From: Apostichopus japonicus
Lineage: Eukaryota; Echinodermata; Holothuroidea; Aspidochirotida; Stichopodidae
DNA length: 64,000 nucleotides
Reading direction: 5' to 3'
Assembly: GCF_037975245.1 (NCBI RefSeq)
Contig: NC_092577.1
Coordinates: 18,970,898 to 19,034,897 of the forward strand
The notes under the pieces are model-generated. The model did no database searches, had not been told where the DNA came from, and saw only the letters and a list, made by a program, of their open reading frames with translations. Each line of letters starts with the position of its first letter. Position 1 is the first letter of the stretch. Below are positions 8,671-56,129 of the stretch, piece by piece. The position numbers were made by a program, and so were the translations under genes.

Positions 8671-9104
8671 TAGGGATGCATTGGATATCCGGTCCGGCCG
8701 GACTATCCGGGCAAATAGTGAGCAATTATCCGGTCCCGGTTCCGGCGAGATATTTTTAAAATAGGGCCAGATCTTTTTAAAATCTGGCCGCTTCTTTTTT
8801 TAAATCTGGCCTGAATTATTCCTTAAAAAGGTGTTGGTATTAACTTAAATCAATGTAAACTATTTCCAAAAATTAATGAAGACATTGAAAGTAAGGAAAA
8901 ATTAGGCTTAACATGTTAATTTCATTTTCTCAAAATGGGTGCTTAATTTCACCCTCTTTATAATATGCGTATACCTCACCTAAGATTTGCTTCTTGTTTC
9001 ATACTTGTACATCTTATTACTGATTCTTTTGTGTGTAATGATAAATGATTTCCGGCCGGTTTTATACGGCTATATTTCATGTGCTATGGATCCGGTGCAT
9101 CCTA
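8671..9104. mobile_element. hAT-like MITE candidate
   Basis: The left end TAGGGATGCATTGGATATCC and the complement of the right end, TAGGATGCACCGGATCC, form imperfect terminal inverted repeats. Flanks ATACGTTT (8663-8670) and TATGTTTT (9105-9112) contain an approximate 8-bp target duplication (one mismatch, with one base of placement ambiguity). The TAGGGATGCA start and 8-bp duplication are typical of hAT-derived non-autonomous elements. No transposase is encoded. An internal GGCCAGAT / ATCTGGCC hairpin lies near 8763-8788. Confidence 0.5.
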
Positions 9105-9139
9105 TATGTTTTCAAGTGTGGAAAATAACATCCCCATTG

Positions 9140-9184
9140 TTGTACCAGGGAGTTGTTATGTACCATAACAACTCCCTGGTTGTA
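9140..9184. mobile_element. Tiny palindromic element with TTGTA direct repeats
   Basis: The core 9145-9179 begins CCAGGGAGTTGTTATG, has a 3-nt loop TAC, and ends CATAACAACTCCCTGG, a perfect hairpin. It is flanked by TTGTA at 9140-9144 and 9180-9184. The same core recurs at 12495 and 13511 with different flanking duplications. Confidence 0.65.
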
Positions 9185-9189
9185 CACGC

Positions 9190-12100
9190 ATATAGATGCA
9201 TTGTCTTATAAGTCTAAGGCACTGCATCAATCATCCGTGTGTTTATAACGTTATTCAGACCTATCCATTGTGAAAGTCGCACGATGAAAGTTCTGATTTT
9301 ACCCCAATCATTAAATCTGTAGTCTATGTGGATATGATTCACAGGCATCGGGGAACGCCAACATTTCTTGGGTTTTTACGTATGGATATCGTAGGTTAAT
9401 AAATTGCGTACTGTACCGTCGCGCGGTCCAACACTTCGGCTGATTTTGTTATCTTGTATTCAAATGATCTTGTCTTTTATTTATAAACACAAGGTTCCTA
9501 TCATGTATTGATATCAGAGATTCAAAATACGCCAATTAGAAAATGTCGTAATTTATTTCAATTTTAATTTTTCTACTTTGAAACTGTACAGTTAAGCTTG
9601 TTGTTATTGTTATAGTATCCTACCATTGGAGAAATTTCGAGAATAACGCAGATTGGTGCATTGAGGCTTGTTTTTAATGGTTCGGCAATATTTCTGAAGC
9701 ATATTGTTTGCAGCGTTAGCTTGATCTTGAGTCATTTTTTTGCGAATGTACTATTTAATACTCTTCAAGTGTGGTGGAATATGTCAATGATTTGGACCTG
9801 TATATCACGCGTCATGAGATCATTACAGTGCATCCCCTATGGTATTTATTATTAAGTGTTCATGTACCAGTGCTTGAAATAGTTGTACGTGTGGACTGTT
9901 GTTGTGTAATGATAAAACAGTGCTGCCATGCCCTTTAATATATTTAACCGCACTTGTTAGTATTAAGTGAAGTAATTTTTTTTAGATGTATGTGTTAAGT
10001 TAAGTATACATCAAATCAATGTTCTTTGGGAATGATGTAGGTACTGCATTTATCTTTCATCTCATTGAATATGAAACTGTTTTAGAAGATGGTTTGCTAT
10101 GTAGAATGTTTTTTTAAAATTTTTGAAATTCATAAATGTTCTAATCAGGCACCAATTTTTTTTTTTGGTAGATCCCATAGCCGTAAGGGTTTTGGTTGTA
10201 TAAAAGATAGTGATTCCTGCATTTGGCAAAGATTGATTCCTCATTTGCCGTTTTAGTGAAATGTGGTTCAGGGTTTGAACATTTGACATGTCTGCTGTAG
10301 ATGCAGTTGTATGAGGTGATTCTTGTTCTTGTGGGTTTTTTTTGACGTGATATACGTGTTACTTATATCTTACATTTCATCGCCAAATACACTGTTTTAA
10401 GAATATTGATTTGATCAAAGCAACACAAGGTATTAATAACCGCCATATCTTATCAATCAACTGCATCAGAAGTTACCTTTGAAGAGTCTTCATACAGTGT
10501 CAGTCGGAATGTGTTATCCTCCTGGTTGGTATTGATACTGTATTTGTGGATGACGAAGAATTTGTTTTTTTATATTTTAGTTGCCAAGTTAGAGCTGTGC
10601 GTGCCAGGGTTCTGTATATATCCCTCAAGGATATCTTGGCTTGCAGAGAGGGCAAAGAATGCCGCGTTGCATCCTCTGCTGGTAGGTTCCGTCAGGACAT
10701 ACAATGTGTAAGGTTTTGATGCCATTTCTGAAATGCAAATGAAAAATATAGGAAGATTTTTAAAATGTGGTAGCATATCTCCATCACCATCTAATCATTA
10801 TTTCCATTGTCAATTAATGCAATCATCTTAGTTGTATTTTTTGTTCGAACGCCCTGTGTGTTTTTGAATCTGTATCGCGTAAAACATTCCTAAGGTGTGC
10901 TTTATTTGTGATAGTAACCTGTGATGTTCTTTTTTGGTAATATACTTGTGGCAACATGATAGTATTTATTTCTTTGTCAAAGTTACGCTTTGTTGTCCTT
11001 AAATATTGTAGGTTTTCAATGATGGCTGCCTTTGCTAAAAATTGTTGCTGTATTTGTTACACTCTAAAGAAATGTATATCATATCTCCTGGCAGCTTTTA
11101 TTGAAATTTAATTCCAAAGAAGAACAATTCATGATAATTAAATTGTGTATACATGTAGGATGTAAATTGTTATTCCAAATGCGAAGAACATTGTGCAACA
11201 TATTAATGTTCAGAATATGAAGACAAATATCTCAGCAATGTTGTATATAAATTCAACAAAATTACCAAATGTGCACAGGTATGTCAATTATTCCAGTTTG
11301 CACAACCAGTGAAATTATGCAAGTTTGTTAACGATTTTCTTGTGTTGTGCAACCATATAAGTAAATTCCACAGCCTAAATGTTACATCATCGCCTCATTC
11401 TACCAAACTATGTTCCTTCTTTTGTCATTTATCACAATTTAAAGGTGACATGAAGGGCTCAAAATATATTTCTTTTTTGGAAGGGCGGGGCTCTTATTGG
11501 TGTTGCGAGGGCTGTTTGTCGTGTATAAATTGTAGCTACGAAATTGATTAATTTTTACAACATTTTATCACTCAAATTAATTACTATAAAAAGTAGACCT
11601 ACTATTGGCTAAGAAAAGAAACAAAAGTTATACATTTTCAAAGTGTTACACCAATCCACTCTCTTTATTTCCACACTCAAATAATACGTTTAATAGTAAA
11701 ATGTTTGCTATAGTATGTTGCTTTTATGCTACTTCATTCTGTCAATCATGGCGACCCATAATTAATATGGTACTGTTCATTAAGTGTACCCAATGGTCAG
11801 TTTAAATCTTGAAAAATATTCCGTAGCTATAGCACTAACCTTCCTGAGTTGTTACTACTCTAATGCTACTAAAATGTTGAAAATCATGGGAAACATGAAT
11901 TATCGTTGCAATATTGTTGGCAACGTTATGAAAATCAAGATAAATTTTTGGGTATTACAGTAACGCTGTTGTTTGAAATTCACGGAAATTGAGAGGTGTA
12001 AATTAGAAAAGAAATCAGGGAATTCCGTGAAAAAGCTTCTCCTGCATATATTACCATGATAACAATAATACTAACCGTGAAGCAAGATTGTTTGTGTTGT

Positions 12101-12480
12101 CATCATCCTATTATATTGCCTTGACAAATGGTTTATGGAACCCACGCAATATCATGCTAATATACCCCCATCCCCTCCTCCCTCCCCGATTGGTTCATAT
12201 GCCTAATCTTTTTATCTTGTTAGTCATTTCATTAATTCCCTAAAATCTGTTAAAGTCTGTTAGTTGTTCCATGGAGCTATAAACAGACCATAGTTGTTCA
12301 AAAATAACCCACATGGCACTATGTCCTACTTGAAGTCAGTTGCGTTCCAAACTTTTGCTATTAAAAAGTAGTCGTAAATTTATCGTCATCTTTTAACAAG
12401 ATAGATTGGCATGGTCGTTACTATAACGCAAATCTGTTCCTCCTGCCTTTCTATTTAGGTATATATTAGGAAAACACCGC
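9190..12480. other. Non-coding stretch, no confirmed gene
   Basis: About 3.3 kb of AT-rich sequence. A minus-strand frame at 10725-10570 (MASKPYTLYVLTEPTSRG start, 51 residues) follows a CAG acceptor-like site. It could be an early exon of the OB-fold gene, but no splice donor is visible before its stop. Nothing else is supportable. Confidence 0.4.
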
Positions 12481-12488
12481 AGGAGTTG

Positions 12489-12529
12489 TCAATGCCGGGA
12501 GTTCTTCCATAACAACTCCGTGGTCAATG
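12489..12529. mobile_element. Tiny palindromic element, diverged copy, with TCAATG direct repeats
   Basis: The core 12495-12523 reads CCGGGAGTTCTT, then CCAT, then AACAACTCCGTGG, a mutated version of the 9145 and 13511 cores. The flanks 12489-12494 and 12524-12529 are both TCAATG, consistent with a 6-bp target duplication. Confidence 0.6.
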
Positions 12530-13505
12530 TTTGGTCACTTTTCCCACAGTACCGTGTAACGCAACACTTAGCTGAGAAAAAAAATATACAAATACACAGC
12601 TGTGCGAAAATGAGCACGCTGAGAACCGAGATTTTTTAGCTAGCTAGGTGGTTGTCCTTGAGTGTGGGTTTTCATGTTGTGTTGTTGACTTTACGATTAA
12701 ATCATGTGTGAGCGAGCGTAAACACCAAGCTGTTTTTAACAAAAAGAAATGGCAGGCAAGGGTTTTGTCGGTGATTTATTTCACAGTATTGTGTCATCAT
12801 TATAGCAGCAAACATGCATTTTTCCAGAAAGGTGTGTTTGCACTGCAGACACTATTAAAACTTCATTGCGTTATTGTTGGAAAGCATTGCTTCATTTCAA
12901 AACAGCATGTGCTTTCTAAGAATAATAATGATGGTTTGTAAAATAACAGTACTAACAATTAGTATTTTTAACAGTCTGGAGGATTAGGACCATCCAATGC
13001 TTTTTGTTAAATTGTGGCAAACAGTTCCTTTTGAAATACTATGAAAGTAGGAAAGAGCAAGTAACACATTTTTATACTTACTGTTTTGAAGTAGCGACGA
13101 ATATGTAGGTTATCTTTTCTGTGTTTTGTTGCAGGAGCTGTAAAGTGAAGAAAACGAACATATGCTGCTTTTGTTCCTGGTCATTTGACATGTTAACATG
13201 CAACAATATTAGATAACACTTAAAATCTCTCCCTTTTATGGCCTTCAAGTTATATAATTCAGTCATTTTGCAAGTATGGTGACTTGTATCTCACCATCTT
13301 GTAAAAATGATGTGGAATGCTGAAGTCAGAAATAAATTCTTTTTCTACAGGAGAACTTAGTAAGGAATAAAAATAAGCGTCATCCACACATGGAAAACTG
13401 GCTACAATTTTGGTTCATTTACATTCTGTGGGCTTACCTAATTTCCTGCGAGTAAATTACATCATAAATCACCCCTCCTCATTCATGAAACAGAACTTGA
13501 TATAG

Positions 13506-13545
13506 TGACACCAGGGAGTTGTTCCATAACAACTCCCTGGTGACA
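13506..13545. mobile_element. Tiny palindromic element with TGACA direct repeats
   Basis: The core 13511-13540 is CCAGGGAGTTGTT, a 4-nt spacer CCAT, and AACAACTCCCTGG. It is only 30 bp and almost perfectly self-complementary. It is flanked on both sides by TGACA (13506-13510 and 13541-13545). Confidence 0.7.
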
Positions 13546-13549
13546 CGCA

Positions 13550-24784: not shown

Positions 24785-26790
24785 AGAGCTCACCTGCAAA
24801 ATAAAAATACAGAGAAATAAACATGGTCTCCAGGAAAAAATTACTGAGTCCAGCTTTGGTAGCAGCCTACATGGGGTAGCTGACACTTATTTGACGTTCA
24901 TGTTTACTTTTTCGCACAACATAGAAAATGGTGGTTTCTGCTATCAAAACATGCAAACAGAAAGAAAAATTAGGCGTAGTCCTAATGTAATGTATTTCTT
25001 TATATCTCATTGCCAGGCTTTAGCATATACTGTTGCTATATGTTAGGCCTACTCCAGCCTGAGTATTGTCTGGGTTATTCAACATTAAAGTTAGGCCTAT
25101 CCTAGTTTACATAAATTGCCCATAAACCTAGCCAATTCTGTTCGAGTTAAGAGTGGTCTTGATAAAAATCTAACTAGGTGACAGTTAATTTTCGTAAACC
25201 ACGCTAGGTCATTTCTCCTTCGTACCATTCAACCTGAAGATTTTGTTTGGCACCGTATCTTGACAATTGCAAAATACCAAGGAAACCTTAAACAACGGAA
25301 GGAAGATATACCTTGATTTTAATCAATGTCGTTAACTCCAATACTAGAACTTCTGTCATCTGTTGGTCTGTTGGTGTTGAACTGATAAAGCTCACCTGCA
25401 AAATACAAATAAAGGAAAATGGACATTATCTCAGAAGAAATATGGCTGAGTCTGGCTTTGGGCCAACCATCATGGGGTAACTTATAATTATTTTTTTTCC
25501 CACCTTTACTTTCCGCATACAGCTTAGATAATGGCGATTTTTTAGCTTGTAAACAAACAACACTATTCTTGGACTATTTCCAGGGTATTTTTATTCATGT
25601 AAATGATTGTACGTGCGGAAATTGATGGCTGGAAAGTACTAGGGCCGGAACACAACTAAAACCTTAAAACTAACAAGAGTTAGACACAGGCTAAGCCTAA
25701 AGTCACTGAAATGAACTTGATGTTTACAAACCTAGTAAAGTACTATTGCTTTTCCAAGGTCATTTGAATTATCATCCACCTGACTGCTAACATCAATAAA
25801 AATAAATAAAAGGCCTAGGCACTTAATACATACAATTCCTACCTTGAAGATGTATACACCTAGGCATACTCATGAAAAGGTATTTTCTTCATATCTCACT
25901 GGCAAATTATAGCTAATCTGCAGGCCTAGACTAGAATCAATGAAGTGAACTTGATTTTACCTGACCTGGAAAAGTATTATGGCTCTATCCAAGAGCAGTT
26001 GATTTGAAAGTAAGAAGAGTAAGACATAGGCTAAGTAAAGTACTATTGATTTTCCAAGCTCATTTGAATTATCATCCACCTGACTGCTAACATCAATCAA
26101 ATAACAAAATAAAAGGCCTAATACATAAATTTCCTACCTTGAAGATGTATACGCCTAGGCATACTCATGAAAAGGTATTTTCTTCATATCTCACTGGCAT
26201 ATTATAGCTAATCTGCAGGCCTAGACTAGAATCAATGAAGTGAACTTGAATTTACCTGACCTGCAAAAGTATTATGGCTCTATCCAAGAGCAGTTGATTT
26301 GCTATCCACCTGGCTGCTAATATTAGCCAATAACCCAAAAAAAGCATCTGGATCATATTACATAAACTTCGTTACTTTATCAAGCTGCAGATGAATACTC
26401 GCAGGCCTTATCCTATTGCACCGTATTTCCTTCAAATGTCGCTGAAAAACTATAGCATACTGCCGTTGGTCTAACTTAGGCCTACTGCAACGCCTGATTA
26501 ATGTCTGGGTACAAACTATCTTAAAAACATAGGGGTGTCGTAGACTACATAAATTGCCCATAGCCTAGGCCCTGCCAGTTTTGTTGGAATTATGAGTGGT
26601 CATTGGTTAAAATTTAGGCGACAGTCAAATTTCGTAAACGGCACCTCATAAATTCTCCTTCGTACCATCCAAGCTGAAGTGTTTTGTTGACACAGAATCT
26701 CGACATATGCAAATACCAGGAAGATGTTATGGAAACTCACTGCAAATACAGTACGTTAACCACAGAATAAAGCTATGATACCTTGATTCG
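24785..26790. repeat. Nested diverged direct duplications of AT-rich DNA
   Basis: A unit at 25735-26007 is repeated at 26035-26302 with exactly 300-bp spacing (for example AAGTACTATTG at 25738 and 26038) and few differences. A second pair, 25010-25330 and 26440-26780, is more diverged but shares ACATAAATTGCCCATA, TTTCGTAAAC and TTCTCCTTCGTACCAT. A third pair links 24790-24890 with 25390-25490 (CTCACCTGCAAAAT, ATGGGGTA). No coding content was seen. AGGCCTA words are frequent. Confidence 0.75.
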
Positions 26791-55009: not shown

Positions 55010-56129
55010 GTGGATGCAATGGCACAATATATTAGCTTGTTAACCTTAACAATTATGAATACATGATACTGTACCTGCAGGGGAGGAGTTTCACATGAAA
55101 TGAATAACAACGGTATATGCACCACCAGATTCACAAATTGGGGACAAACCAAACATGTTTGTTACTATGAGCAGTGTTTTCTCACGATAACATTTGCTTT
55201 AGAATATGGTACTAAGTTACTAACCTACATATTTGCATATTGCTGGGCTAACAGGCAACCCCACCCCATCCCCAAAAATTTATCCCTCCCTGATTTCAAT
55301 TTGATGTTGACACTCTAAACACATGCCCCCTCCCCTTCCCTTCCACTTTATGAAACTGCTTTGACTGCCCTAGAATGTTTTTCTAACATGCTTCAGAGGG
55401 GGGGTTTGCAGAGGTGGGGGGGTTCAGCATGAAAACTTACTGTCACACTGCTAATCCATTCTTCATGCTTTATACACACATGTTGTAAGGGCCTTTGAAG
55501 AGGAAATTGACCCTTATGCTGAAAATCGTTACATTTTGTGAAGGTATTGCATACAGCTAGATTTATCCCCAGCAAACCATCCCTAGCAGTTTTCACATTT
55601 TACAAAACGCAAAAAATCAAAAATTGTAAATCGTTGAAACTGACAGCAAAATTTCTAATTAGAACACCAAGTAGTCTATTTTTCAGACAGGATTGAGAAA
55701 GCTATAGTATTCCCCTCAGGGCACTTGGAATTCTTTCTCCTTTTACTTTCATATTCTGCTTTCATTCTTGTTAAGGCAGGATTTTGCGTTGGCTCGCTTT
55801 TTCCAGCTTTTTAACATGTGCATGGATTTTTTTTACATGTATCAATCATAAAACAGTCAAAATACCATCCAAGTTTCACCCTGCCAAGAGCGTTAATTAG
55901 CGAGTAATAAACGAATTATGTCGATAACGAGTAAGTGTACACGACAAAGTGTTCATTCATCCAAATCCACTAGTTTGAATTCCACCAATCAATGAATAGT
56001 ATGTTTATTCATGAGACGTTGCTTAAAATAGATTCATTCACAACAACTCGAAAAAGTTGCGTGTGCGTGGGTATCACAGACATACCAACTCCCTGGACAT
56101 ACACTGTACAAACTAAAGCATTGCATTGT
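55010..56129. other. Spacer between divergent genes Y and Z
   Basis: It would hold the 5' parts of gene Y on the minus strand and regulatory DNA for gene Z. Poly-G/poly-C patches are present near 55395-55420. No exon could be supported. Confidence 0.35.
56080..56102. mobile_element. Half-size remnant of the tiny palindromic element
   Basis: CAACTCCCTGG (56086-56096), one arm of the palindrome, is flanked by ACATAC on both sides (56080-56085 and 56097-56102). Confidence 0.4.

Follow-up and report, generated by a model that had tools for sequence, protein, structure and literature searches.

What are the short palindromes, each bracketed by its own direct repeat, that recur in the genome of the sea cucumber Apostichopus japonicus? 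We addressed this question from a window of 64,000 nucleotides (assembly GCF_037975245.1, contig NC_092577.1, positions 18,970,898 to 19,034,897 of the forward strand), meaning the whole stretch of DNA that was analysed, in which a sequence-only reading had reported three such palindromes and proposed that a ~30-bp unit is mobile itself, or is the minimal end pair of a larger transposon mobilised in trans. All three palindromes lie where that reading placed them. Our analysis indicates that they are very probably fossil excision footprints, present en masse; i.e., healed donor sites of a P-superfamily DNA transposon that was inserted and later excised. Read directly in the assembly are the flanking duplications, complete elements that share their ends and carry a P-type transposase gene, a limit to the length of the palindrome arms, varied centres, and empty sites; a staggered cut of ~18 nt followed by an end-joining route is proposed on the model of the Drosophila P element.

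A scan of the window for the terminal repeat together with a 7-bp target-site duplication (TSD) revealed five footprint sites, against the three previously reported; 200 shuffled versions of the terminal repeat, scanned in the same way on the + strand only, gave no sites. A 13-nt arm with at most 2 mismatches matched the window 10 times, compared with a mean of 1.6 and a maximum of 7 for shuffled arms. The features are as follows.

9139..9145, + strand: left TSD of footprint 1, GTTGTAC, 7 bp
9146..9178, + strand: footprint 1, 33 bp, CAGGGAGTTGTTATG-TA-CCATAACAACTCCCTG; parental terminal-repeat arms of 15 and 16 nt with 2 nt between
9179..9185, + strand: right TSD of footprint 1, GTTGTAC, 7 bp
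12488..12494, + strand: left TSD of footprint 2, GTCAATG, 7 bp
12495..12522, + strand: footprint 2, 28 bp, an 18 + 12 nt join with common AA; both arms substituted
12523..12529, + strand: right TSD of footprint 2, GTCAATG, 7 bp
13505..13511, + strand: left TSD of footprint 3, GTGACAC, 7 bp
13512..13539, + strand: footprint 3, 28 bp, an exact 18 + 12 nt join
13540..13546, + strand: right TSD of footprint 3, GTGACAC, 7 bp
26710..26716, + strand: left TSD of footprint 4 (absent from the sequence-only reading), CAAATAC, 7 bp
26717..26742, + strand: footprint 4, 26 bp, a degenerate left arm (to ATGGAA) and a short right-arm remnant
26743..26749, + strand: right TSD of footprint 4, CAAATAC, 7 bp
56079..56085, - strand: TSD of footprint 5 (likewise absent from that reading), GACATAC (GTATGTC on the - strand)
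56086..56095, - strand: footprint 5, a single-arm remnant of 10 nt (CAGGGAGTTG on the - strand) between duplications
56096..56102, - strand: second TSD of footprint 5, GACATAC, 7 bp

The true core was CAGGGAGTTGTT...AACAACTCCCTG, and the outer C/G, previously counted with the arms, is part of the 7-bp TSD. Genome-wide, the outermost letters vary (TCAGGG, GCAGGG, ...CCTGA; rows TCAGGG...CCTGG and GCAGGG...CCTGC) and therefore belong to the flank, outside the core. The shared palindromic core thus stood, without its outermost letters, and the middle copy proved to be substituted rather than to carry the exact quoted arms. Similarly, the duplicated flanks were recovered at all three sites, but at a length of 7 bp and not 5–6 bp, around cores of 33, 28 and 28 bp.

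We then searched the genome (a 671.6-Mb assembly of 35 contigs). Perfect palindromes with centres of 2–12 nt numbered 146 (control 0), and the 30-mer allowed up to 3 mismatches, the search that the earlier reading had proposed, gave 948 matches (control 0), a count in which a near-symmetric site can score on both strands. The 35-mer form gave 116 matches (control 0), and an exact 12-nt arm with a fixed-length stretch gave 3777 (control 35), where the two arms of one site can score separately. The 12-nt arm matches listed fell at 88 distinct loci across ~15.05 Mb of contig C1; extrapolating from this one contig, we infer ~3,900 loci with at least one exact 12-nt arm genome-wide.

The flanks were compared at 60 palindromes, comprising the first 40 of 83 listed exact 30-mers and 20 sites of the 35-mer form (10 exact, 10 picked variants). 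At these sites a 7-bp direct repeat abuts CAGGG...CCCTG, perfect in 44 of 60 (shuffled pairs: mean 1.5, maximum 6) and with at most one mismatch in 49 of 60 (shuffled pairs: mean 6.5, maximum 15); perfect repeats at 4, 5, 6, 8, 9 and 10 bp were found in 0, 0, 0, 1, 0 and 1 of 60, respectively. In the first 40 sites the CC...GG core fixes the outer letters of the duplication, and the shuffle control keeps these letters. The flanks differ from site to site, and these counts support the earlier proposal that the duplications arose by transposition. The commonest base at each position over 55 perfect duplications gave GTTTAAC. A duplication of 5–6 bp around CC...GG element ends was replaced by one of 7 bp after the comparison of the 60 sites, and a Transib or RAG-type transposon, with its 5-bp target duplication, was rejected on the same counts (0 of 60 at 5 bp, 44 at 7 bp). 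The joined flanks of the 60 sites revealed no empty site among the sampled loci, and the sole pair spanned by them was L049/L050, which are not independent within the 60 because they lie in a duplicated segment. The concern that the flanks might be part of a longer conserved sequence applied, among the 60, to this pair only; some footprints elsewhere hitch-hike in repeats.

A second, less selected sample comprised 40 C1 sites for which the sole requirement was one exact 12-nt arm: 38 in list order up to C1:6.4 Mb (the L001 and L002 loci left out), with L149 and L150, which were picked for recurring flanks. By a rule blind to the duplication, the right end was recognisable in 28 of 40. The 7-bp duplication was perfect in 11 of these 28 and had at most one mismatch in 19 (shuffled means 0.83 and 2.13). 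Without six copies of one repeat family (L134, L138, L141, L143, L146, L149), the values among 22 sites were 9 and 16, against shuffled means of 0.46 and 1.2. The centres in this sample varied widely.

Two sites contain tandem footprints sharing the middle TSD copy (L003:373-437, GTTTGAC three times; L130:570-640, GTCTAAC), as if a duplicated target had been hit a second time. A related palindrome at L001:791-825, with arms CAGGGAGCTGCT...AGCAGCTCCCTG, is perhaps the scar of a second family.

We investigated whether the palindrome ends belong to a larger element. A parent-like sequence was first met at L086, where 83 bp stand inserted between two copies of GTATGAC, and it served as the query for paired ends genome-wide. 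A complete element of 12,042 bp was found at C3:19626415-19638456, with the TSD GTCTGAC on both sides and terminal repeats identical over 33 bp (CAGGGAGTTGTTATGGAATGGAGTTCTGTCTTC; first 18 nt CAGGGAGTTGTTATGGAA). Another copy lies on C17, where it extends over 13.1 kb between copies of the TSD CTGAAAC; it is 99.3% identical to the C3 copy at the left end (569 columns) and 96.3% at the right end (464 columns). Two copies of ~4.5 kb, on C2 and C12 (TSDs GTTTAAC and GGTAATG, respectively), align to the outer parts of the C3 element and not to its transposase region. The idea that the core represents the paired ends of a larger transposon was therefore correct, and longer elements with the same ends, sought on that idea, do exist as these C3, C17, C2 and C12 copies. 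On these figures, complete elements are greatly outnumbered by scars: duplications were verified for 4, and further single ends exist.

The predicted transposase of the C3 element matched PF21787 (103.2 bits, E 1.8e-29; cut-off 24.6) and PF12017 (25.2 bits; cut-off 23), with PF21789 (33.9 bits; cut-off 24) in a later reading frame, and its best solved relative was the Drosophila P transposase 6p5a (E 1.4e-9). The terminal inverted repeats are short and begin with CA (CAGGGAGTTGTTATGG...), a trait of the P superfamily. Based on its predicted P-type RNase H-like domain and 7-bp TSD with a GT...AC preference, the parent is classified as a P-superfamily DNA transposon. PF21787 gave 45 genome matches, two of which (C3:19630435 and C17:23631930) lie inside the C3 and C17 elements. 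PF21788, the GTP-binding insertion domain, was not among the matches of the two C3 frames to which that scan was confined; other P transposases encoded in this genome (L063, L065, L066) do have it.

The C3 element also contains two - strand frames, 8723-9817 and 11453-11866 (L092:638-1732 and L092:3368-3781), of 365 and 138 aa, which run opposite to the transposase and gave no Pfam match above cut-off. The outer part holding these two frames is largely kept in the 4.5-kb relatives, which are without the transposase region.

We next compared the palindrome arms with the parent end. Among 100 listed arms of at least 12 nt, the match was 12 nt long in 27, 13 in 7, 14 in 8, 15 in 13, 16 in 4, 17 in 4, 18 in 33 and 19 in 4; none of the 100 matched beyond 19 nt, though the C3 terminal repeats are identical over 33 bp. 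The four 19-nt arms all read GGAATAA, the T being attributable to the other arm or to a substitution. When both arms were required to reach 16 nt, with the inner ten letters of each exact, 29 sites were listed, and their centres were AA in 15, A in 5, AAT in 5, and AATT, AT, GAT and AACAT in 1 each. More than 18 nt from either side was needed in none of the 29, and at least 18 from one side was used in 21; the five AAT centres fit 18 + 17 or 19 + 16. The core strings took 32 distinct forms (29 with reverse complements merged) among 67 parseable rows of the 100 listed, some differing solely by point mutations, and the 33 remaining rows had no simple right end. The centres are junction-like, not the one inherited interior expected of a miniature inverted-repeat transposable element (MITE).

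The sizes of the commonest cores were consistent with the same limit. An 18-nt overhang with a 2-nt terminal microhomology permits exactly two joins, of 28 and 25 bp, because two positions in the other overhang can pair with its terminal AA. These two forms recurred most often in the 67 parseable rows: 13 rows, at 8 loci, have the 28-bp form, and 9 rows have the 25-bp form, at 9 loci of which 4 belong to one repeat family. With overhangs of 16, 17, 21 or 22 nt, no join of at least 2 nt is possible, and those of 15, 19 and 20 nt give other sizes.

Following insertion, 7 bp of a GTTTAAC-like target would be duplicated. At excision, the transposase would cut the 3' ends of the element flush and the other strand ~18 nt inside each end, leaving both broken chromosome ends with the 3' overhang CAGGGAGTTGTTATGGAA. 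The two overhangs would then be rejoined by short-microhomology end joining. In the resulting scar, the two copies of the duplication would enclose at most 18 nt from each end of the element, and the inverted-repeat relation of these ends would make it palindromic. The parent is a large element, represented by the 12.0- and 13.1-kb copies, with the ~4.5-kb relatives lacking the transposase region.

Empty sites were observed within copies of a host repeat. The repeat at C1:7890652-7891686 (L149) and its relatives are dispersed (1463 candidates, 40 scored) and carry an old footprint, with differing centres at the same footprint position. A joined-flank query of this repeat gave 40 scored matches, six of which were examined (L151–L156). 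A single GTACAAC without arms was present in L151, L152, L153 and L155, whereas L156 reads GAACAAC and L154 has a doubled GTACA, again without arms. The empty sites that the sequence-only reading hoped to see in related individuals were thus found in host-repeat copies of the same assembly, not in other individuals.

Partial products were also observed. At L086, an 18-nt arm and 66 nt of an end meet at one common A, and at L104, ~58 nt of an end is joined at AA to a 12-nt arm; the element DNA left at these two loci reads as in partial gap repair. L079 and L087 consist of an 18-nt arm, then 1–2 nt, then the second duplication. The duplication was kept despite a trimmed-away arm at L136, L049:325, L079, L087 and window positions 56079-56102. 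A high-copy parent with a conserved interior was looked for at 20 loci with an unpartnered 18-nt arm (L071–L090) and was not found: L086 has both ends and the duplication, L079 and L087 have the arm and second duplication, and 17 have neither. The selection filter of this search (K at one position) excluded the true parent sequence.

This anatomy closely resembles that described for the Drosophila P element, whose transposase cuts 17 bp inside a 31-bp repeat to leave 17-nt tails (PMC7776569). Junctions in spn-A mutant flies (PMC2895639, Table 1) retain, besides the target duplication, no more than 17 nt of either tail, and show microhomologies or insertions. In both systems, on these accounts, the scar is a duplication plus partial terminal repeats up to a fixed tail length (PMC2895639; PMC7776569), and partial gap-repair products occur; the Drosophila joins are blunt, or made by short microhomology (commonly 2 nt) or with small insertions, as in the anatomy seen here. 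The two differ in tail length (17 nt in Drosophila P, ~18 nt here as deduced from scars), in duplication (8 bp against 7 bp) and in scale, with 68 sequenced junctions from spn-A flies and one reporter against thousands of arm matches in one assembly. TSDs of 7 bp are reported for 1360/Hoppel (GTTNAAC; PMC3276498) and Galileo (GTANTAC; PMC4168063), which share with the present family a palindromic preference, its commonest bases here being GTTTAAC. As those sources describe them, Galileo has very long terminal repeats, compared with 33 bp here, and unlike in 1360 and Galileo, the transposase here has a RAG1-like/zf-AD-like N-terminus in which a THAP domain was not detected. The zebrafish Pdre2 and THAP9 elements, as described in PMC10983969, likewise have terminal repeats starting with CA and internally deleted relatives, but their terminal repeats are 13 bp and their duplication 8 bp (33 and 7 bp here), and zebrafish THAP9 excision in Drosophila cells is reported there with larger flanking deletions.

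The alternative nearest to the sequence-only reading is that the 28–33 bp palindrome is itself mobile, as an extreme MITE moved in trans by a P-type transposase. Many identical 28-mers (at least 83 exact 30-mers listed) do stand at different targets within perfect duplications, with both outer ends of the palindromes intact. However, the centres are diverse, like repair junctions; some arms are reduced to 5–10 nt, or lost altogether, beside an intact duplication; end joining of an 18-nt overhang predicts the two commonest forms; and at L086 an 18-nt end meets 66 nt of an end. Moreover, the arms stop at ~18 of 33 shared terminal bp, and since the transposase-binding sites described in Drosophila are internal to the terminal repeats (PMC7776569), a 28-bp unit would be without their equivalent. 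The differing centres, the arm limit and the trimmed sites that keep their duplication speak against both a mobile ~30-bp unit and a minimal end pair mobilised in trans, and we consider the MITE explanation very unlikely.

Less probable still is that full-length insertions were internally deleted by recombination or replication slippage, with no transposase cutting. Such deletion likewise leaves ends and duplications, and some interior is retained at a few sites (L086, L104), but in the absence of a fixed cut all arm lengths are predicted, up to and past 33 bp, whereas 0 of 100 listed arms extend beyond 19 nt and 0 of 29 long-arm sites need more than 18. A conserved palindromic binding site or RNA hairpin, its flank repeats due to chance or part of the motif, would fit the strong inverted symmetry and high copy number. 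The 7-bp flank duplications are different at each site, which speaks against this explanation, and it is already contradicted by the empty sites, where the target stands once, and by complete transposons bearing these ends; we give it hardly any weight.

Several points count against the preferred reading, that the palindromes are excision footprints of a P-superfamily transposon. Excision itself was not observed, and the evidence is one assembly. The cut position is read from end products, which trimming or fill-in could shift by a base; the AAT centres are also compatible with 19 + 16, and the microhomology comparison was made after the data were seen. A 17-nt overhang pairing by a single A also allows 28 and 25 bp among others (derived by hand), although it would leave the fifteen AA centres unexplained, where one arm reads 18. 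Few complete elements are present, and since 4 were verified against thousands of arm matches, most scars must derive from copies now gone from the assembly. The copy number is partly hitch-hiking inside other repeats (40 scored copies and 1463 candidates for one repeat). None of the ten P-transposase loci first sampled (L061–L070) has a complete end pair, L068 having one end; the ends of the C3 parent lay outside the sampled stretch L067. Furthermore, no right end was recognised by the blind rule in 12 of 40 C1 sites, and 17 of 20 unpartnered-arm loci lack a second 7-bp flank copy closing a footprint.

The flanks, too, include exceptions of this kind, 11 of 60 palindromes being without a 7-bp match at one mismatch or fewer. 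L002 has a perfect 8-bp direct repeat and L056 a 10-bp one, whereas partial matches at L034 (7/8), L018 (6/8), L053 (5/6), and L010, L017 and L040 (5/7) may be decayed duplications. The flanks of L044 are unrelated, and those of L028 (400-430) and L035 (400-430) are inverted, not direct. L134 has flanks GTTGTAC/GTACAAC, and the empty version of the same place reads GTACAAC; the inverted-flank footprints L028, L035 and L134 could reflect template switching at the palindrome or rearrangement. Exchanged duplications are known from inversions made by Galileo, as described in PMC2775673. Mismatched flanks were also considered as exchanged duplications marking rearrangements, and a recount gave mostly partial matches, only L044 being clearly unrelated.

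An N-terminal THAP DNA-binding domain is usual in P-superfamily transposases. None was found in L067, L068 and L069 at E up to 0.1, and a RAG1_imp_bd match was obtained instead. P-superfamily transposases with an N-terminal RAG1_imp_bd domain (PF12560; cut-off 23.3) are encoded at L068:2224-4152 (C17:20913223-20915151, + strand; 40.1 bits) and L069:3457-5481 (C17:16777656-16779680, - strand; 42.2 bits), and these were the sole matches in a genome search with PF12560; the C3 parent transposase matched more weakly (18.3 bits), below the cut-off. A profile of three such proteins matched RAG1 chains in the PDB (21wb_A, E 7.3e-7). An Aplysia transposon of RAG1 N-terminal-like sequence, N-RAG-TP, has been described (PMC8355894), and the titles and opening abstract lines of the literature searched contain no evident link between N-RAG-TP and P elements. 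We tentatively propose, with more doubt than confidence, that the scars are mostly independent germline excisions of a P lineage cutting 18 nt inside its ends, with relatives in this genome that have a RAG1-type N-terminal zinc domain, and that this lineage has a common ancestry with the source of the N-terminal region of vertebrate RAG1, which Transib transposases lack.

A search of the open-licence literature with the arm sequence gave four hits, none concerning transposons as judged by title, and no earlier report of genome-wide P excision scars was evident there in titles and abstract starts, which is weak evidence of absence. Although the kind of scar is already known, the number of scars, the proposed 18-nt offset and this parent family appear to be new.

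Short palindromes with target duplications resemble tiny MITEs and could easily be misannotated as such. These results suggest that, through its excisions, a transposon can mark a genome far more heavily than its very few complete copies do. Because the fossils are numerous, the cut position of a P-type transposase and the end-joining outcomes favoured in the germline may be deduced from an assembly alone. If the 18-nt offset is true, the long stagger known from Drosophila would be a trait of the wider superfamily, variable in length.

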